64,000 nt of DNA from a virus. Numbering within the stretch: position 1 is the stretch's first letter; each line of letters starts with the position of its first letter. Of this stretch, positions 6,369-59,852 are shown piece after piece. The DNA is taken from positions 22,284 to 86,283 of the IMG/VR virus record IMGVR_UViG_3300032282_001282. The stretch is one strand, 5' to 3'. The notes under the pieces are model-generated. The model ran no database searches, had not been told where the DNA came from, and worked only from the letters and a program-made list of their open reading frames with translations. The position numbers and the translations under genes were made by a program.

Positions 6369-7314
6369 TTGTTAATTGATCAAGCAGTCCTGAGCTAAAA
6401 TAAGTGTTAAACTTATTATACAGTCCTGCTGTTGCAGATACAAATTTTTCTTTTTCATTTGCAGTCATGCGTACAGTAGGAATGCCTTGCTCAGCGGCAC
6501 GTTTTTGAATTACAACATTATCGGCTAGGCTATGATCACGTTCGATTTGAGCGGCTCTCATAGCGGCACGAGCAAAAATGCCCTGTACCTTTTCACCTAA
6601 GGCTAACCAAGTTTGTTGGTTGATAATTAAACTGGTTAGGAACAAGCTGTGTTCGTTATCATTAATATGTGTAGTTTGCTTATCGTGGCCTAGTACAAAG
6701 AAACGAGTGTAAGTAGTTTCACCACCATCAACACGACCAGTTTCTAAACTAGCTTCTAAGTCTTCGATAAACATTGGAACTGGAGTAGAGCCAACGGCCT
6801 TGAAAGTTTCAACTGCTACTGGGTTATTACCACAGCCGATATTCATACTAGCAAAATCGCCAATGGATTCGATTGCACGATTACTTGGAACAATACGGAA
6901 ACCACCTGAGTAAGTAAATGCTAGTCCACGGATATTGCTATTATCAGCAACTTTGGCCAACATGTGTTGCCCAACTGGACCATCAATAACTTGACGTGCT
7001 TGCTCATCGCTGTTGAATAAGAATGGCATTGTTAGTGCATACATATCTTTGTCAACACGACCTAAAGTACTTGCATAAACTGTAGCCATGTCAATAATAC
7101 CATTATCAACTAAACCGATAACACGCTCACGGTCTGTAGTGTGTTCTGTTAAATTATCTTTAGCAATAGCGTTCCATTCTTTAAGATCTAGAACATTAAT
7201 TGTATATTGACCGTTGGTTTCTGTATAAACTTCTTCGGCAAAGCTCTTAGCGGCTTCAATAAAAACATGGTAAGGCTCATGGGCCAATACCCAGTTTAGG
7301 GTGTACTTTTGCAT
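6352..7314 (-). CDS. TRAP (DctP)-type solute-binding-protein homologue lacking a signal peptide
   Basis: 320 aa. IRGLAFTYSGGFRIVPS, MPFLFNSDEQARQ and HSLFLTSLIINQ are DctP-fold hallmarks shared with the protein at 2558-3595. It starts MQKYTLNWVLAHEPYHV, with no signal peptide or hydrophobic segment, so a cytoplasmic location is predicted. It is the first gene of the block, preceded by a GATAAATA late-type box at 7351-7358. Confidence 0.75.
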   Translation of the reverse strand: MQKYTLNWVLAHEPYHVFIEAAKSFAEEVYTETNGQYTINVLDLKEWNAIAKDNLTEHTTDRERVIGLVDNGIIDMATVYASTLGRVDKDMYALTMPFLFNSDEQARQVIDGPVGQHMLAKVADNSNIRGLAFTYSGGFRIVPSNRAIESIGDFASMNIGCGNNPVAVETFKAVGSTPVPMFIEDLEASLETGRVDGGETTYTRFFVLGHDKQTTHINDNEHSLFLTSLIINQQTWLALGEKVQGIFARAAMRAAQIERDHSLADNVVIQKRAAEQGIPTVRMTANEKEKFVSATAGLYNKFNTYFSSGLLDQLTNGKLK

Positions 7315-9673: not shown

Positions 9674-10019
9674 CTTTCTTTTCTTCTTCTTTAGGAATAA
9701 ATTGTTCTAGGTAGGCCAAATCTAATTCAGCCATTACTGTGGCTACTTCTTTTGGATAACCCTCTAAGAAGTATTTAAAAAGACTATCAAAGTCTTTTTG
9801 TTCAGTGTCGTAGCGATTTTGTACAACAGTTTTTTTATTAAGATTTAGTACAACTCCAGCGTACTGTTGATCTTTACCGGACAGGCCTTTGGTAAACTCA
9901 ACACGTTCGTCGAATTGAATATTCTTTGGATCTTTATTCCAGCCAGGTTGTTCTGTGCGAACTCCGCGGCGTGGTTTCATTACATAAAATGCTACAAGGT
10001 GTAGGTCTTTGATTTTCAT
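9651..10019 (-). CDS. Unknown protein directly after the clamp loader (gp62 position)
   Basis: 122 aa with an acidic, Lys/Glu-rich C-terminus. It overlaps the clamp-loader gene by 4 nt, which is where T4-like phages place gene 62, the small clamp-loader subunit, but no gp62 motif was recognised. Position alone supports a link to the replisome. Confidence 0.5.
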   Translation of the reverse strand: MKIKDLHLVAFYVMKPRRGVRTEQPGWNKDPKNIQFDERVEFTKGLSGKDQQYAGVVLNLNKKTVVQNRYDTEQKDFDSLFKYFLEGYPKEVATVMAELDLAYLEQFIPKEEEKKDETVQAE

Positions 10020-10933
10020 AGTTGTGTAAGCTCGATTAAAGTTGCTGATAAGTTAATTTCAGGATCAGCACACATTGGGTGATTAACCAATCCTTTGCGG
10101 ATTGCCAAGATAGCTTGGTCTTGTTTTTCTGGATCCTTAGACCACAGTTCCAAATTGTCGTACATCCAACGGAATAACCCGTCCATATCTTCCATACTGG
10201 CTTGTGTACAAATTGCTTGTCGACCTTCTCTAATTTTTCCAGCCTTAAACAATTCTACAGCACCAAGACGCCAGTCTTTAACAGCACGATCATTTTCACC
10301 GGGCTTGTCTAGACGTCCTGTAGTTGAGTTTGCTTGTACAAGATTTAGACATTTACGCAGATCTGGATATGTTGCTTTGACATAGCTGTCAAGCGTATCC
10401 AAATCAAACTCAACATTTTCTGATACCAAGATAGTGGCAATACGAGCAGTAAATTCTGTCAAGTCTGTTTTATCGATATGGAAACCTTGACAACGACTGT
10501 GTAAAGCATCCATAATTTTATGTGGTTTGTTACAAGTTAAAATAAATCGAACTTGTGCCGCATACTGTTCTAATGCACCACGCAACAATGCTTGACTGTT
10601 CGGAGTCAAATAGTCTGCTTCGTCTAGCAAAACAATCTTTAAATGTCCAAACGGCATAGTACTAGCAAAACCCAGTACCTTGTCACGCATGTCATCAACT
10701 TTGGTTTCATTAGATGCATTAATATGCAATACATCATAATCATCAATGCCCAACTCGTTGATAAGAACTTTGGCTAGCGTAGTTTTACCTGTGCCCGGAC
10801 TACCGCTTAGTAGAATATGTGGAATTGATTTTTCTTTTACCCAAGATTCAATTTGCTGTTTTTGTCCAGCGTCAGTGAACACATAATCTTGTATCGTTTT
10901 GGGACGATACTTTTCTGTCCAGAGTTCTTTCAT
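10016..10933 (-). CDS. 44: Sliding-clamp loader ATPase, T4 gp44-like
   Basis: 305 aa AAA+ protein. WTEKYRPKTIQDYVF is the RFC box II start, GSPGTGKTTLAK (residues 44 on) is Walker A, IVLLDEADYL is Walker B, and LHSRCQGF is the SRC motif carrying the arginine finger. Length and motif order match T4 gp44 and RFC small subunits, which open the gp45 ring clamp on DNA. It overlaps genes on both sides by 4 nt. Confidence 0.94.
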   Translation of the reverse strand: MKELWTEKYRPKTIQDYVFTDAGQKQQIESWVKEKSIPHILLSGSPGTGKTTLAKVLINELGIDDYDVLHINASNETKVDDMRDKVLGFASTMPFGHLKIVLLDEADYLTPNSQALLRGALEQYAAQVRFILTCNKPHKIMDALHSRCQGFHIDKTDLTEFTARIATILVSENVEFDLDTLDSYVKATYPDLRKCLNLVQANSTTGRLDKPGENDRAVKDWRLGAVELFKAGKIREGRQAICTQASMEDMDGLFRWMYDNLELWSKDPEKQDQAILAIRKGLVNHPMCADPEINLSATLIELTQL

Positions 10934-31208: not shown

Positions 31209-31581
31209 CGATTCTTTCAAAAAATACAATTTGTGGGCATACCTCTTCCCCCACTATAGGCTTTCCTCGATAGTCACTACCTTTAACCATTATACTACAG
31301 TTCTTGATAATGTCAACTAGCTCTGCGTCGGTGCCAAAAATTTTAACTTCGTCAACAGAACGCAAATTTTCTAATAGAGTTTTTCTTTCTACTTCATTGT
31401 TAACTGGCCGTGAGGGACCTTTTAGACTGCGTACACGGCTATCGGAATCAATGGCTACAACTAGATAATCACCAAGGGATTTAGCATAATTTAATAATGC
31501 TAAGTGCCCGAGGTGCAATACATCAAAGGTACCATTTACTACTATTTTGACTGCTCTGCTAATTCTTTGTACCCTGCCCAA
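31159..31581 (-). CDS. Cytidylyltransferase-fold nucleotidyltransferase, HldE C-domain-like
   Basis: 140 aa. NGTFDVLHLGHLALLNYAKSLGD carries the HxGH motif, DSDSRVRSLKGPSRPVN and VKGSDYRGKPIVGEE match the adenylyltransferase half of HldE. It would form ADP-heptose from heptose-1-phosphate. No ATG fits; the likely start is TTG at 31581, overlapping the SGNH gene by 40 nt. Confidence 0.8.
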   Translation of the reverse strand: MGRVQRISRAVKIVVNGTFDVLHLGHLALLNYAKSLGDYLVVAIDSDSRVRSLKGPSRPVNNEVERKTLLENLRSVDEVKIFGTDAELVDIIKNCSIMVKGSDYRGKPIVGEEVCPQIVFFERIDEYSSTKKIQHIINRG

Positions 31582-40958: not shown

Positions 40959-41927
40959 TTATTGTACGTTTTTCTTGGTTTTTTCTAATATTTTAAATGT
41001 CTTATTCTGTATTGTACGCAAATCCTCAAACGAGCCACCGGCGTTTATAACGCCCGATGTTTTGAGTCTTTCTGCGTATACAGGATTTTTCAACCCTTCC
41101 TCAACCACGAGATGTATTCTAGCCACAGTTGCTAAATCAGTACCAGCCGGCGCAAATAGTCCATACCAAATGTTCATGTCTAATTCGGGGTGCTTCTTGG
41201 ATAACGCTGGTAATTTAACAGAAGGATTTAATTCGTTGACCGTATGGCTTCCTTCGGGAGTCAGTGCGGCAATAAATTTAATTTTTCCAGCCTGCCATTG
41301 TGGCTTTAGTGTACCCAGTGAATCAATTGAAAAATCCACATTGCCGGCCATCAAATCAATCAGTGCTGGGCCGCCACCTTTGTAGTTGATAATCTGTGGT
41401 GCTGGTAATTTTTCCAATTTGGCCCAGTATGTAAACAAGTTGGCATTGTGATTGGACCAGTGTGCTATGTTGAATTTGTTGGGATTTTTGCGTACATAGT
41501 CCTTGAGTTCTTCATAGTTGTTAACAGGACTGTTTGCAGGAACAGCAAGAATAAATGTGGCAATACCCATTGGGATAATTGGAGAGAAACTGGCCGGTGT
41601 ATATTCTATATTTTCTTGTGCAGTCTTGAAAACAATATTACTGTCCAAGGTACCTTGACTGACCATGAATACTGTGTGTCCGTCTGGATTGGCCTTGGCC
41701 ACATAGTTGGCGGCAATCACAGTATCAGCACCGGGCTTGTTTACAACTGTAGCTCGCCAGCCGTGATTGTTAATAATTTCTTCAACAATACGAGCAAGTC
41801 GGTCTGTGTTTCCGCCTGGTGCAAACCCTACCACAATTTCAATTGGTTTTTTTGTTGGATCAAAATCAGCTAGAGCTGAAAAAGATAACATTGATAGTAC
41901 GGCTGTGATAAAAAGTCGTTTAAACAT
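40959..41927 (-). CDS. Bug/TctC-family periplasmic solute-binding protein
   Basis: 322 aa from ATG 41927; the signal peptide MFKRLFITAVLSMLSFSALA then begins correctly. PIEIVVGFAPGGNTDRLAR is the classical family motif, and VVNKPGADTVIAANYVAKANPDGHT and YKGGGPALIDLMAGNVDFS follow the canonical order, so this is the most typical Bug protein of the three. It lies directly downstream of the second PP-loop gene. Confidence 0.92.
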   Translation of the reverse strand: MFKRLFITAVLSMLSFSALADFDPTKKPIEIVVGFAPGGNTDRLARIVEEIINNHGWRATVVNKPGADTVIAANYVAKANPDGHTVFMVSQGTLDSNIVFKTAQENIEYTPASFSPIIPMGIATFILAVPANSPVNNYEELKDYVRKNPNKFNIAHWSNHNANLFTYWAKLEKLPAPQIINYKGGGPALIDLMAGNVDFSIDSLGTLKPQWQAGKIKFIAALTPEGSHTVNELNPSVKLPALSKKHPELDMNIWYGLFAPAGTDLATVARIHLVVEEGLKNPVYAERLKTSGVINAGGSFEDLRTIQNKTFKILEKTKKNVQ

Positions 41928-41989
41928 GATTTGAATGGTCCTTATTTTTAAAAATTTCAATGATTGCGTTGTATAGTTTTTCTAGCACG

Positions 41990-43130: not shown

Positions 43131-43362
43131 ATAATGATAGGTTTATTCTGTTACGAGGAAAACCTATCAAAACCCTAAGTGGCTGTTAGGCCGCTAATGC
43201 GAACTGTTCGTCGTTTGCGTTTACGTTTTTTGCTTCTGCGACCGAGCTACGTCTTTCTATGCTATGGGCATAGCGACTACAGTTACCTCAATCCTAACGG
43301 GTTTCACATTCCCGTGTTGTCTGCTTGTCTACTTATCACCCTGTCGAAACCATAGCAGGCCC
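43131..43362 (-). ncRNA. ssrA: tmRNA, coding piece (permuted, split ssrA)
   Basis: The 5' end GGGCCTG (43362-43356) pairs in all seven positions (one G-U) with CAGGTCC of the acceptor piece at 43749-43755, forming the tmRNA acceptor stem. CTATGGTTTCGACAGGG corresponds to the conserved 5' tRNA-like region (TGGATTCGACGGG in E. coli). The tag reading frame is at 43218-43186: GCA AAC GAC GAA CAG TTC GCA TTA GCG GCC TAA, i.e. ANDEQFALAA, preceded by AAAAAACGTAAAC. Downstream, GATAGGTTT/AAACCTATC (43168-43136) forms a 9-bp hairpin near the likely 3' end, which is approximate. Function: rescues stalled ribosomes and tags peptides for ClpXP. Confidence 0.92.
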
Positions 43363-43363
43363 A

Positions 43364-43732
43364 TCATAAAGAAACTTGTTTGAGATACTGCTCACCTTCG
43401 CCGGTTACATACCAATACTCATCATCGTTGACTATGTATCCAGCATCAGCCAAACTGTCCATAGCATTGTCAAATGCTTGGGTGCGTGACTCATCTTCTA
43501 CATAGTCTAATCCTGACATGATGGCAGTATAGATTCCTTTTAGTATTAGAATTTTACCTAATCCCTTGCCTTGAAAGGTTGGCTCTAATTCTACTAAACT
43601 TCTTCCACTAACTGCATCATATTGAAATGTTCCTGCATATTGCCCATCTACACTTATTTCAACGCCAATAGTATTACTACCTTTTGTTGTTTTGAAACTT
43701 AGTTTCGGATTAGCAATTTCAGTGATACGCAT
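43364..43732 (-). CDS. GNAT-like acetyltransferase encoded inside the tmRNA intervening segment
   Basis: 122 aa from ATG 43732, with AAGGAAG four to five nt upstream overlapping the acceptor piece's 3' trailer; TTG 43735 is possible. ELEPTFQGKGLGKILILKGIY resembles GNAT motif A (Q-x-x-G-x-G-K). The TGA stop (43366-43364) ends one base before the mature 5' end of the tmRNA coding piece. It lies exactly where permuted tmRNA genes have their short removed spacer. Confidence 0.7.
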   Translation of the reverse strand: MRITEIANPKLSFKTTKGSNTIGVEISVDGQYAGTFQYDAVSGRSLVELEPTFQGKGLGKILILKGIYTAIMSGLDYVEDESRTQAFDNAMDSLADAGYIVNDDEYWYVTGEGEQYLKQVSL

Positions 43733-43744
43733 CAAACTTCCTTA

Positions 43745-43809
43745 TGGTGGACCTGGCGGGAGTCGAACCCGCGTCCAGAATGCCTTTCGGCTCACTTCAT
43801 ACAACAATA
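43745..43809 (-). ncRNA. ssrA: tmRNA, acceptor piece (permuted, split ssrA)
   Basis: Minus strand: a GCCGAAAGGC hairpin, then TTCTGGAC, the T arm GCGGG-TTCGACT-CCCGC (5-bp stem, 7-nt loop), CAGGTCC, A and encoded CCA (43747-43745). No anticodon or D arm follows, so it is not an ordinary tRNA. It precedes the coding piece in transcription order, the reverse of a one-piece tmRNA. The 5' boundary is estimated from the promoter. Confidence 0.92.
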
Positions 43810-43815
43810 ACTTAC

Positions 43816-43844
43816 ATTATATACTTATTTGACTAGCGTGTCAA
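43816..43844 (-). promoter_or_regulatory. Sigma70-like promoter of the split tmRNA
   Basis: Minus strand TTGACA (43844-43839), exactly 17 nt, TATAAT (43821-43816); start site expected near 43809. The -35 box lies in the last codons of the radical-SAM gene. Confidence 0.85.
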
Positions 43845-45330
43845 ACGGGGTTAATTTGGATTTTTTGTAAGTTTCTATGGCCGCATACACTTCTTTGATT
43901 TTGTTACCAAATAATGTTTTATCAAAAGTTCCATTTATAACATCTTTGATATCGATTCCTAATCCAACTATTTCCGACACTTCCCACATAGCAGTTACAC
44001 CATCATTCCAGTTGTGTATAACTTTGCCAAACTTCTTTCTGTACTGATCTGTTTCTTTGTTTAACTGTTTTGCGATGGCCAATGCTGTATCTACATCCAT
44101 AAATTTGTTTTTCCAGTTTACAATGTCGATGTCTTTTTTAAATGTGCCTTTGTCTACAGTTTCTGCATCTTTTGTAGTGTAGTCCCATTTTTCATAGTTC
44201 TTCTCAAACTCACTTAATCTAGTCATTGCATTTTTACGCAACACCAATCCAAACCATTCCCATTTATCAAATACTTCAAAGTTCTGGTCGATAAACCATT
44301 GCTGGCTATCAAGTATGCTTTTTAATGATTCGCCGGGCAGTCCTACAATCATTCCTGTGTATGTATAGATGTCGCGATTCTTTTTTAGTTGTCTAACAGC
44401 GTCAAGTTGACGTTCAGTATCCATGCCCTTGCCAATGGCTTTTTTAGCCTCAGGATGGAATGATTCTATCCCAAAGGTACCGGCAATAAGTCCTGTGTCG
44501 GCCAACATTGATATTGTTTCAGGATATCTGGCCATTAAGTCTGCACGTAAGAATGCCGAGTAAGTTAGTTGAACTCCGCTTTGTGCAATAGCTTCGGCAA
44601 CGTATTCTAGTTTAACTATGTTGTCGTTAAATGTATCGTCTTGGAATGTGTAGTTAGTGATACCCCACATTTCGTAATTGCGTTTGAATTCATCGGCTAA
44701 ATTTCCTTTGTGTCGTATGTAGTCATTTTTCTTTTTACCAAGCAAAGGAAATTGGCAAAAGGTACATCTAAATATACAGCCACGACTAATTTCAACAGGC
44801 AAGAAGTTAAATTTAATTTGATCTTCGGGCAACCATTTGATTGTTAAATCAGTGTCATCATTCTTGTAAAATTCTTCAGCATTAACTGCCAGGGTTTCTC
44901 TATATGGTACCCATTGTAGGTTGTCTAATCGTTTACCCGTAATGTATTTTAAGTAATGTAATACTGCTTCTTCGGCGTAGCCCCAGATAATTCTATCTAC
45001 TAGAGCTGTATCTAATCCAGCCAGTGCAGATTCGTTACCGCCAATGAGTGTTTGTACTCCGGGATAGGTTTCTTTGACATGTTTGAATAAGGTATTAATT
45101 TTTTCAAAGTCGTACAAGAATGTAATGCTAATGCCAACAAACAAAGTATCTTTTGTGATATACTTTGCACATACTTGTTTTAATTCGTCTATAGAAAAAT
45201 GACTAAAGTAATCAACTACTTCAATGTTGAACCCATGTGGTTCCAAGAATGTCCTAATTCTAGTTGCACCGGCAGGCCTAGTTAAGGTCTTGGTTTTATC
45301 CATGCCAGTGAAGATTATTCCGTGTGTCAT
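43825..45330 (-). CDS. Radical SAM enzyme with N-terminal cobalamin-binding-like domain
   Basis: 501 aa. The cluster motif CIFRCTFC (C185, C189, C192) is CxxxCxxC; FQDDTFNDN, LGIESFHPEAKKAIGKG-like FGIESF and GMIVGLPGE are radical-SAM core motifs. Residues 1-130 form a Rossmann-like region (TLIGGNESALAG) as in B12-binding radical-SAM proteins, but the DxHxxG cobalamin motif is absent. Class B methylases and peptide-modifying enzymes have this layout. It overlaps the gene upstream by 4 nt. Confidence 0.85.
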   Translation of the reverse strand: MTHGIIFTGMDKTKTLTRPAGATRIRTFLEPHGFNIEVVDYFSHFSIDELKQVCAKYITKDTLFVGISITFLYDFEKINTLFKHVKETYPGVQTLIGGNESALAGLDTALVDRIIWGYAEEAVLHYLKYITGKRLDNLQWVPYRETLAVNAEEFYKNDDTDLTIKWLPEDQIKFNFLPVEISRGCIFRCTFCQFPLLGKKKNDYIRHKGNLADEFKRNYEMWGITNYTFQDDTFNDNIVKLEYVAEAIAQSGVQLTYSAFLRADLMARYPETISMLADTGLIAGTFGIESFHPEAKKAIGKGMDTERQLDAVRQLKKNRDIYTYTGMIVGLPGESLKSILDSQQWFIDQNFEVFDKWEWFGLVLRKNAMTRLSEFEKNYEKWDYTTKDAETVDKGTFKKDIDIVNWKNKFMDVDTALAIAKQLNKETDQYRKKFGKVIHNWNDGVTAMWEVSEIVGLGIDIKDVINGTFDKTLFGNKIKEVYAAIETYKKSKLTPFDTLVK

Positions 45331-46103
45331 TTGTTCTTATTAATGTAACGCTGTTTTAGTGCTTCAAAAAACTCACGATCATCATCAGTTAATTCAACTG
45401 CATCAATTTGTTCACGTTGATATCTAACAAAATTTTGTAGTGCTTCAAAGTCGCCTTCATACTTAAAGTTGTTGGTAATCTTTTTAGTATCGTAAACGTC
45501 CATGATAATATGATAACGATCTTCATCTGAGTCATTGCGAATTTGGTGCCATAGGTTAGTCCAAATAATGTATGGACGACCATCGGCTTCCATGTACAGA
45601 CGATCCCCATCACAGATGTGTACGCATTGGTCGTTAGTCCACAATGGAATATGTAGTCTAGCCATATACTCAGTTGTGTCTGCGTCTTTGTGTACTAGGC
45701 TTTTACAATGTGCTTGTAAGCAGGTAATCCTGGCACGTCTAGGATAAAAACCCAACTCCATTAAATGATCAATTATTTTTTTAATTTCGCCTACATAGGC
45801 CTGTGTGGGCTTGTCGTGTTCTAAACTGTGGGAAATATTAAAATGTTTAAAGGACTTGTATATTAGTTCTGTTGTAGGTAAAAATGATTCAAGTGACGTA
45901 CCGGCTTCTGTTTGTATTGCTTCCCAACCATCTTGCCAGTCTGCACTACGGCTTAACAAACTCCACCCGCCAAATCCGTGATACTGTGGTGTTTCAAATT
46001 CTTCGCCTTGGATTACTTGGTTGCCCAATGTAAATACACTTTCGCGAACTTCTTTGCGAAGTTTATCAATATCAAATTGAACGTCTAATTTTTCGTACCA
46101 CAT
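45327..46103 (-). CDS. Aspartyl/asparaginyl-hydroxylase-like HxD dioxygenase
   Basis: 258 aa. H138-K-D140 (LVHKDAD), H186 (LWHQIRND) and R196/R-Y after it give the Fe(II)/2OG triad and arginine. The AHIPLW-like ARLHIPLWT and DGDRLYMEADGRPYIIW strings resemble aspartyl beta-hydroxylase-type enzymes, which often modify proteins. Between two radical-SAM or oxygenase genes in one operon. Confidence 0.7.
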   Translation of the reverse strand: MWYEKLDVQFDIDKLRKEVRESVFTLGNQVIQGEEFETPQYHGFGGWSLLSRSADWQDGWEAIQTEAGTSLESFLPTTELIYKSFKHFNISHSLEHDKPTQAYVGEIKKIIDHLMELGFYPRRARITCLQAHCKSLVHKDADTTEYMARLHIPLWTNDQCVHICDGDRLYMEADGRPYIIWTNLWHQIRNDSDEDRYHIIMDVYDTKKITNNFKYEGDFEALQNFVRYQREQIDAVELTDDDREFFEALKQRYINKNK

Positions 46104-59823: not shown

Positions 59824-59852
59824 ATTATACGGGATTATAGTTGGGGTGTCAA
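59824..59852 (-). promoter_or_regulatory. Consensus sigma70 promoter of clpP
   Basis: Minus strand TTGACA (59852-59847), 17-nt spacer, TATAAT (59829-59824); both hexamers are perfect. Overlaps the SprT gene's end. Confidence 0.88.

Follow-up and report, generated by a model that had tools for sequence, protein, structure and literature searches.

Permuted tmRNA genes place the acceptor piece ahead of the coding piece, and the locus described here raises the question of what a protein gene is doing between the two. It lies in a window of 64,000 nucleotides that spans positions 22284-86283 of a virus record 86,283 bases long (IMG/VR IMGVR_UViG_3300032282_001282). The first-pass annotation of this DNA recognized a circularly permuted two-piece tmRNA and overlooked that its 382-nt spacer is the gene of a 122-amino-acid protein. 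The reading proposed here, which we consider probable, is that the spacer of a permuted tmRNA gene is a slot holding a protein gene that is translated, can be exchanged and is controlled by a helical switch. On the minus strand the order is promoter, acceptor piece, spacer with the protein gene (termed cargo), coding piece with tag, and beta-like sequence to 43139:

43816..43844, minus strand: predicted sigma-70-type promoter, TTGACA-N17-TATAAT, 12 of 12 consensus bases
43745..43806 (5' end approximate), minus strand: acceptor piece, from the RF04321 alignment and sequence; part of it is the 5' strand of the tRNA-like domain (RF04321 alignment)
43756-43772, minus strand: T arm (RF04321 alignment and sequence)
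43749-43755, minus strand: acceptor 3' strand CAGGTCC (RF04321 alignment and sequence)
43748, minus strand: discriminator A (sequence)
43745-43747, minus strand: CCA (sequence)
43363..43744, minus strand: spacer (intervening sequence) of 382 nt, between CCA and G1
43737..43743, minus strand: Shine-Dalgarno-like (SD) element AAGGAAG (sequence, helix covariation, pair probabilities)
43364..43732, minus strand: cargo gene, 122 aa plus stop, weakly GNAT-like, C-terminus KQVSL (relatives, pN/pS, fold)
43363..43377, minus strand: 3' boundary strand AAGTTTCTTTATGAT, the last cargo codons and stop, predicted to pair with the CCA/SD strand
43356..43362, minus strand: acceptor 5' strand, GGGCCTG, with which the coding piece opens (G1 at 43362); 7 of 7 pairs with 43749-43755
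43139..43362 (3' end approximate), minus strand: coding piece (RF04321 to 43186; RF01850 partial match 43231-43139)
43186..43218, minus strand: tag frame ANDEQFALAA plus TAA (sequence, RF04321 alignment)

The covariance search that the first-pass annotation had proposed bore out its identification of the RNA. The Rfam model RF04321 (tmRNA_permuted) matched 43806-43186 (-) over its full length, positions 1-213 of 213, at 101.2 bits (gathering cut-off 47, E 1.5e-18), and this was the sole over-cut-off Rfam match in the window. The features that had been read by eye were also found in place: the acceptor piece precedes the coding piece in transcription order, GGGCCTG and CAGGTCC pair in all seven positions, one of them a G3-U70 wobble, the tag frame ANDEQFALAA lies at 43218-43186 (-), and all 12 consensus bases of the promoter are present at 43844-43816 (-). 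The G3-U70 wobble is the element recognised by alanyl-tRNA synthetase. The tag codons, GCA AAC GAC GAA CAG TTC GCA TTA GCG GCC TAA, end in small nonpolar residues, as expected of a permuted tmRNA. Score, piece order, 7-bp acceptor stem with G3-U70, CCA and tag frame are all those of the permuted two-piece family (RF04321; RF01849 for the alphaproteobacterial, RF01850 the betaproteobacterial and RF01851 the cyanobacterial forms). The presence of such an RNA on a phage stands, but it is not new in kind, since the tmRNA survey in PMC9004378 includes 53 two-piece forms among 133 distinct tmRNAs, drawn from 402 of 18,146 phage genomes.

Three negative results weigh against the identification. ARAGORN made no tmRNA call in the window and also missed L067 and L081, two loci of the survey described below, while calling L038 and L057; tmRNA finders can therefore overlook cargo-bearing genes. 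A search of the whole record with RF04321 gave partial matches only, at 34.8 and 22.1 bits and below the cut-off, which we attribute to the long spacer. No intrinsic terminator was found on the minus strand between 43000 and 44000. Exact TTGACA/TATAAT pairs occur on the minus strand of the window at 31289-31316, 43816-43844 and 59824-59852, three motifs with spacers of 15-19 compared with a shuffle mean of 0.21, and are perhaps early promoters. At 43825-46103 (minus strand), immediately upstream of the tmRNA, a radical SAM protein whose B12-binding match is weak adjoins an aspartyl/asparaginyl beta-hydroxylase-like protein.

Relatives of the 122-aa protein were found at 15 loci by a protein search of viral contigs, 12 of them full-length at 89-93% identity, one at 66% and two cut by contig ends, and RF04321 exceeded its cut-off at nine of the 15. 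In a 12-sequence alignment (the window and 11 loci), acceptor and coding pieces flank the ORF in all except L017, and the spacer-borne family has a pN/pS of 0.16 over 35 pairs. The best AlphaFold2 model of the protein reached a pLDDT of 80 (the remaining four, 62-67), and nearly all of the 50 best PDB matches to it in a fold search are named acetyltransferases, with a best E of 2.2e-3 and none at or below 0.001. Up to E 1 the sole Pfam match was HTH_45 (E 0.0083, below cut-off), and a PHROGs search returned no match. The modeled fold thus weakly resembles acetyltransferases of the GNAT kind. A homing endonuclease was considered and rejected, as neither Pfam nor PHROGs gives the protein an endonuclease match, and the intron that would house one was rejected as well, as the window has no group I intron match in Rfam.

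At L017:1036-3921, the GNAT-like cargo domain occurs within a 961-aa phage protein, between two short GVAEGS repeats and without a tmRNA. L014 and L038 share one contig (IMGVR_UViG_3300044630_002352), in which the strands CTGGTCC and GGGCCTG of the acceptor stem pair apart from one T-T mismatch. This looks like the product of recombination between two alleles within the stem, and ARAGORN nevertheless reports a tmRNA there, with the tag ANDSQFALAA. The L505 spacer (9945-10328 of the reverse strand) holds a second, different cargo (VDPKFRRQGIASMM) that looks like an acetyltransferase by eye.

The extent of this arrangement was surveyed in viral contigs, first with the pattern GGTCCACCATAAGGAAG, which represents the acceptor end, CCA and SD. 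It matched 92 stretches, 75 of which parse as permuted tmRNAs with 7/7 acceptor pairs; among the 17 without a coding piece by rule, 11 end 25-252 bases on, four look like chance matches (L024, L030, L062, L103), L038 has one acceptor mismatch and L083 was left unparsed. Because GGTCCACCATAAGGAAG itself contains the SD, scans with the D-loop ATGGTTTCGACAGGG and the boundary TTTATGATGGGCCTG were added, and since their counts are among the matches listed, the totals are not prevalences. The parser took in D-loops of the form GGATCGAT. In all, 317 viral loci and the window yielded at least 231 permuted tmRNAs in 229 of the loci, at least 198 of them distinct. A spacer of at least 75 nt was scored as cargo-bearing if an SD-like AGG, GGA or GAG was followed by an ORF of at least 18 aa starting 6-16 bases past CCA. 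Two parser artefacts, L061, a tRNA cluster (215 nt), and L108 (1090 nt), stand within the 94 cargo-free rows and were removed from the spacer-length table.

By this rule, 104 of the 198 distinct phage permuted tmRNAs among the matches listed carry a cargo ORF with an SD. In the D-loop set, which is not keyed to the spacer and comprises only the new loci of the ATGGTTTCGACAGGG scan and L020-L022, cargo was found in 27 of 86 among the matches listed, so that cargo-bearing tmRNAs appear not to be rare in uncultivated phages. By spacer length, the counts are none of 35 spacers below 80 nt, 20 of 41 between 80 and 130 nt (mean of 6.3 and maximum of 13 with shuffled interiors) and seven of ten at 130 nt or above (expected 0.45 with ends kept and interior shuffled, maximum 4). 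All scans together gave 80 distinct spacers of 130-600 nt among the matches listed, of which 70 follow the cargo rule and eight more have a spacer-filling ORF of at least 40 aa under a looser rule; L081 has two tandem cargos, leaving only L126 without cargo. In L081 (6941-7316) both genes share one tmRNA spacer, and where they adjoin, the first gene's 3' boundary abuts the second's SD boundary and the first ORF reads through for six more residues. The 78-nt spacer of the permuted tmRNA in L173 (6919-6996) is occupied by a tRNA-Asn gene (6920-6992), and thus RNA genes can also be cargo.

The ORFs behind the SD are mostly unrelated to each other and fall into at least 45 families, 26 of which have more than one member, among the matches listed. 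Convincing matches were obtained for three of 21 cargo proteins scanned against Pfam, namely thioredoxin (F14, PF00085, E 4.1e-21), DUF2061 (F43, E 3.7e-21) and CxxCxxCC (F23, E 1e-5), each over the Pfam cut-off, and for one of eleven scanned against PHROGs. A membrane-like segment is present in 14 of the 45 family representatives; small membrane proteins, thioredoxin and GNAT-like cargos look like host-acting accessory genes. Among the matches listed, the stop lies exactly one base ahead of G1 in 69 of 104 genes, as in the window, where one base separates TGA from G1; it lies 12 or 13 bases ahead in 18 and elsewhere before G1 in six, and 11 ORFs cross G1 into the coding piece. Of the 20 families that could be tested, 14 have a pN/pS no higher than 0.30, which shows purifying selection; several values come from one pair, within-family pairs are non-independent, and helix-borne end codons were left out. 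The others gave 0.54 (F0), 0.74 (F19), 0.94 (F8), 1.06 (F24) and 1.09 (F2), and F20 has nonsynonymous changes only. The survey thereby yields candidates among small phage proteins for functional testing.

Comparisons among loci indicate that cargo passes from the tmRNA gene of one phage to that of another. The spacers of L015 and L016 are 99.7% identical and their acceptor pieces 74.6%, while coding pieces and flanks do not align; conversely, L037 and L153 carry different cargos, one of them thioredoxin, behind an acceptor piece and 1120 upstream bases that do not differ between the two. Among same-family pairs with long flanks, 68 of 87 have no homology in either flank. The tmRNA itself looks intact in cargo-bearing genes, to judge from its conserved parts. 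Among the matches listed, all 104 cargo-bearing genes and 92 of the 94 cargo-free ones have G3-U70, and a tag was found in 84 of the former (17 lack one by the rule used despite enough sequence and three are cut) and 79 of the latter (ten lack one, five are cut). The tags end in AA in 77 of the 84 cargo-bearing genes in which one was found, and RF04321 scores 76-129 bits in L005, L012, L015, L016, L434, L465, L505 and the window.

Bacterial and named-phage genes provided controls. RF04321 exceeded its cut-off in 174 of the 190 alphaproteobacterial genomes and in 16 of the 300 from Burkholderiales; it was used for bacteria because ATGGTTTCGACAGGG calls are misleading there (53 one-piece, 60 undetermined and three spurious permuted calls). 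The best 30 alphaproteobacterial and best 13 Burkholderiales loci, a selection biased toward typical genes, gave 34 of 43 that parse when the alphaproteobacterial T loop GGCGGT is taken in (nine unparsed), all with cargo-free spacers of 5-48 nt, in contrast to the 382-nt spacer and protein gene of the window. Among the six longest alphaproteobacterial spans listed, five parse, with spacers of 44-232 nt; the 232-nt spacer of L512 contains an SD with a frame of 55 aa but none near CCA, and the 165-nt spacer of L513 has no SD with an ORF. Eight of 11 named-phage loci parse as permuted, with spacers of 26-126 nt, and none of these eight from cultured phages has cargo by the same rule.

The boundaries of the cargo gene are also parts of an RNA helix. 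Pairing with the bases before G1 can continue past the acceptor stem through the discriminator, CCA and some ten further bases; the first C of CCA stands opposite A and is never paired in the cargo set. In the window, AAGGAAG lies one base past CCA and four bases ahead of ATG and doubles as the 5' strand of this extended acceptor helix, in which the AAGTTTCTTTATGAT strand is predicted to pair to 43746-43738 with a probability of 0.95-1.00, the C-A mismatch excepted; the acceptor stem pairs at 0.92-1.00. Both stem and extended helix form in the minimum-energy fold of the 674-nt RNA, with helix pair probabilities of 0.95-1.00 up to the SD, mismatch excepted, while the T arm is mispaired (T-stem pair probability 0.35). 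Across 68 distinct boundaries of cargo-bearing RNAs, 95.1% of cells at nine helix positions are paired, against 84.3% with partners shuffled (maximum 86.9% in 500 shuffles) and at most 68.0% in slid registers. In 75 cargo-free RNAs the corresponding values are 93.9%, 61.9% (maximum 68.7%) and 62.8%. The helix covaries: the number of pair types at a position ranges from one to five with cargo and from two to six without. Among the matches listed, the 3' strand is retained in the 18 of 104 genes whose ORF stops 12 or 13 bases early, which argues that it is kept as RNA and not merely as a protein tail.

Folding predictions assign the SD an unpaired probability of 0.59 before the 3' strand is made and 0.06 after, lower in 104 of 104 genes, and 0.50 with the 3' strand reversed; the predicted openness of the start codon barely changes (0.35 before, 0.39 after). 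Burkholderiales spacers, e.g., L356 and L359, have the same hairpin, ending TTATGAT; the window shares this beta-type spacer hairpin with known permuted tmRNAs. Bacteria and named phages also have the hairpin without a cargo, so translation control is not what it evolved for. Its presence without cargo in Burkholderiales suggests that the hairpin probably came first and that its loop took up genes, the 3' strand supplying the stop codon.

In the proposed mechanism, a single transcript would run from the promoter through the acceptor piece and cargo gene to the coding piece. During synthesis the SD just past CCA would be open, and ribosomes could translate the cargo. Once made and free of ribosomes, the 3' boundary strand would pair with the SD, extending the acceptor stem, and formation of this helix would both shut translation and join the two tmRNA halves. 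RNase P is the enzyme that cuts before G1. Its cut, together with 3'-end nucleases, would release both tmRNA pieces. Translation and maturation should be mutually exclusive on one molecule, since the helix takes in the cargo gene at both ends, and the model makes a sharp prediction of how one transcript divides between mRNA and tmRNA. Exchange of cargo would probably proceed by recombination in the shared boundary sequences. Several observations count against the model: a start codon whose predicted openness barely changes, the 11 ORFs that cross G1, the six families lacking a low pN/pS, the high shuffled ORF counts of 80-130-nt spacers (up to 13 of 41), a hairpin that also occurs cargo-free, the mispaired T arm, the 17 cargo-bearing genes lacking a tag, and the eight cultured phages, all cargo-free. 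A broader statement, on which we see the balance as even, is that the permuted tmRNA precursor is a two-state carrier RNA, serving first as mRNA for one of dozens of swappable small proteins and then as rescue RNA, with one helix that holds the SD and the tmRNA ends as the switch, and with the slot as a cassette-exchange site common to phages with alpha-like and beta-like tmRNAs.

The observations might instead reflect a merely tolerant insertion site, whose passengers are translated without regulation and whose helix is an inherited processing hairpin that hides the SD as a side effect. The hairpin without cargo in Burkholderiales and in cargo-free phage tmRNAs fits this account, as do the lack of relationship of the cargos to one another and to ribosome rescue and the start codon that is not predicted to close. 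We nevertheless judge it rather unlikely, in that the SD lies inside the helix in 45 unrelated cargo families, with starts 8-15 bases past CCA among the matches listed, and the helix pairs change together on both sides. A passenger could, moreover, bring its own SD within the loop, as in a later-starting class (e.g., L423, L489, L505 at base 23).

Two other explanations concern the tmRNA and the ORF separately. That the unit is chiefly an mRNA, its tRNA-like halves acting as processing or stabilising caps and its rescue role lost or changed, would suit an excised spacer that is nearly a minimal mRNA, with the SD at its 5' end and the stop at its 3' end; a mycobacteriophage tmRNA fragment that inhibits rescue, described in PMC4131195 and PMC11915505, also lends it some plausibility. 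It is nonetheless very unlikely given G3-U70 in all 104 cargo-bearing genes, AA at the end of 77 of 84 tags (both among the matches listed) and the RF04321 scores of 76-129 bits in the window and the seven loci named above. Hardly credible is a chance open frame in the unusually long spacer of an ordinary permuted tmRNA. The alphaproteobacterial L512 and L513 do attest long spacers (232 and 165 nt) without a start-proximal ORF, but 12 further viral contigs encode the protein at 89-93% identity and another at 66%, its pN/pS is 0.16, and known Pfam families occupy the same slot, all of which speaks against accident. Chance was rejected on selection (pN/pS) and on the interior-shuffle counts.

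The slot model, if true, describes a gene for a functional RNA with an exchangeable protein gene built into it, an architecture not found in the literature searched; in the passages covered from open-access papers, no protein gene in a tmRNA spacer was found. PMC4131195 lists phages with ssrA, PMC11915505 lists 79 unique phage tmRNAs, the longest gene having a repeat in its spacer, and PMC10117765 describes a predicted small ORF of the Sinorhizobium meliloti tmRNA that contains the tag. The two-piece tmRNA of Melnitz-type marine phages is also permuted and on a phage, and its description in PMC9004378 reports a glutamine riboswitch, the part concerned making no mention of a spacer gene. According to PMC11915505, some of the group I introns that interrupt tmRNA genes hold a homing endonuclease gene, and there a protein gene likewise lies between tmRNA parts. 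The window differs in having no intron match, in cargos of known family that are not endonucleases, and in an insertion at the acceptor end instead of the T loop. A permuted tmRNA whose spacer houses tRNA-Ala, termed unique in the relevant passage of PMC11915505, similarly accommodates another gene, in that case a tRNA and here a protein gene.

Two systems beyond tmRNA offer analogies. SgrS/SgrT is a dual-function RNA that also encodes a small protein. RNAs of this type likewise combine an RNA role with a protein product in one transcript, whereas here the frame sits in a segment expected to be excised and its content is exchangeable. Integron gene cassettes are unrelated small genes exchanged between constant borders, and the phage cargos are swapped in a comparable manner. 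Their borders, unlike those of integrons, are the tmRNA acceptor strands and hairpin, usually around one cargo (two in L081).

The first-pass annotation had also expected the tmRNA to help place the host, an expectation that is weakly supported. In its favour, the 3' part of the coding piece is beta-like, with an RF01850 partial match at 43231-43139 (-) of 45.2 bits; at a cut-off of 84 this amounts to resemblance to the betaproteobacterial form in that part, and not to membership. Nearby, a TctC-family receptor gene occupies 40959-41960 (-) of the window (Pfam 6.4e-34). Receptors of this family are abundant in betaproteobacteria. Against it, each of seven cargo families is found with alpha-like as well as beta-like tmRNAs; the spacer content, at least, is therefore a poor guide to the host, and cargo was rejected as a host marker. 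Among the matches listed, T loops GGCAGT go with ATCGA D-loops, and TTCG/TGCG mostly with TTTCGAC (191 of 198 rows). The GGCAGT/ATCGA type resembles alphaproteobacterial tmRNAs, the other is labelled beta-like here, and the paired change of T-loop and D-loop types points to co-evolution of the tmRNA elbow.
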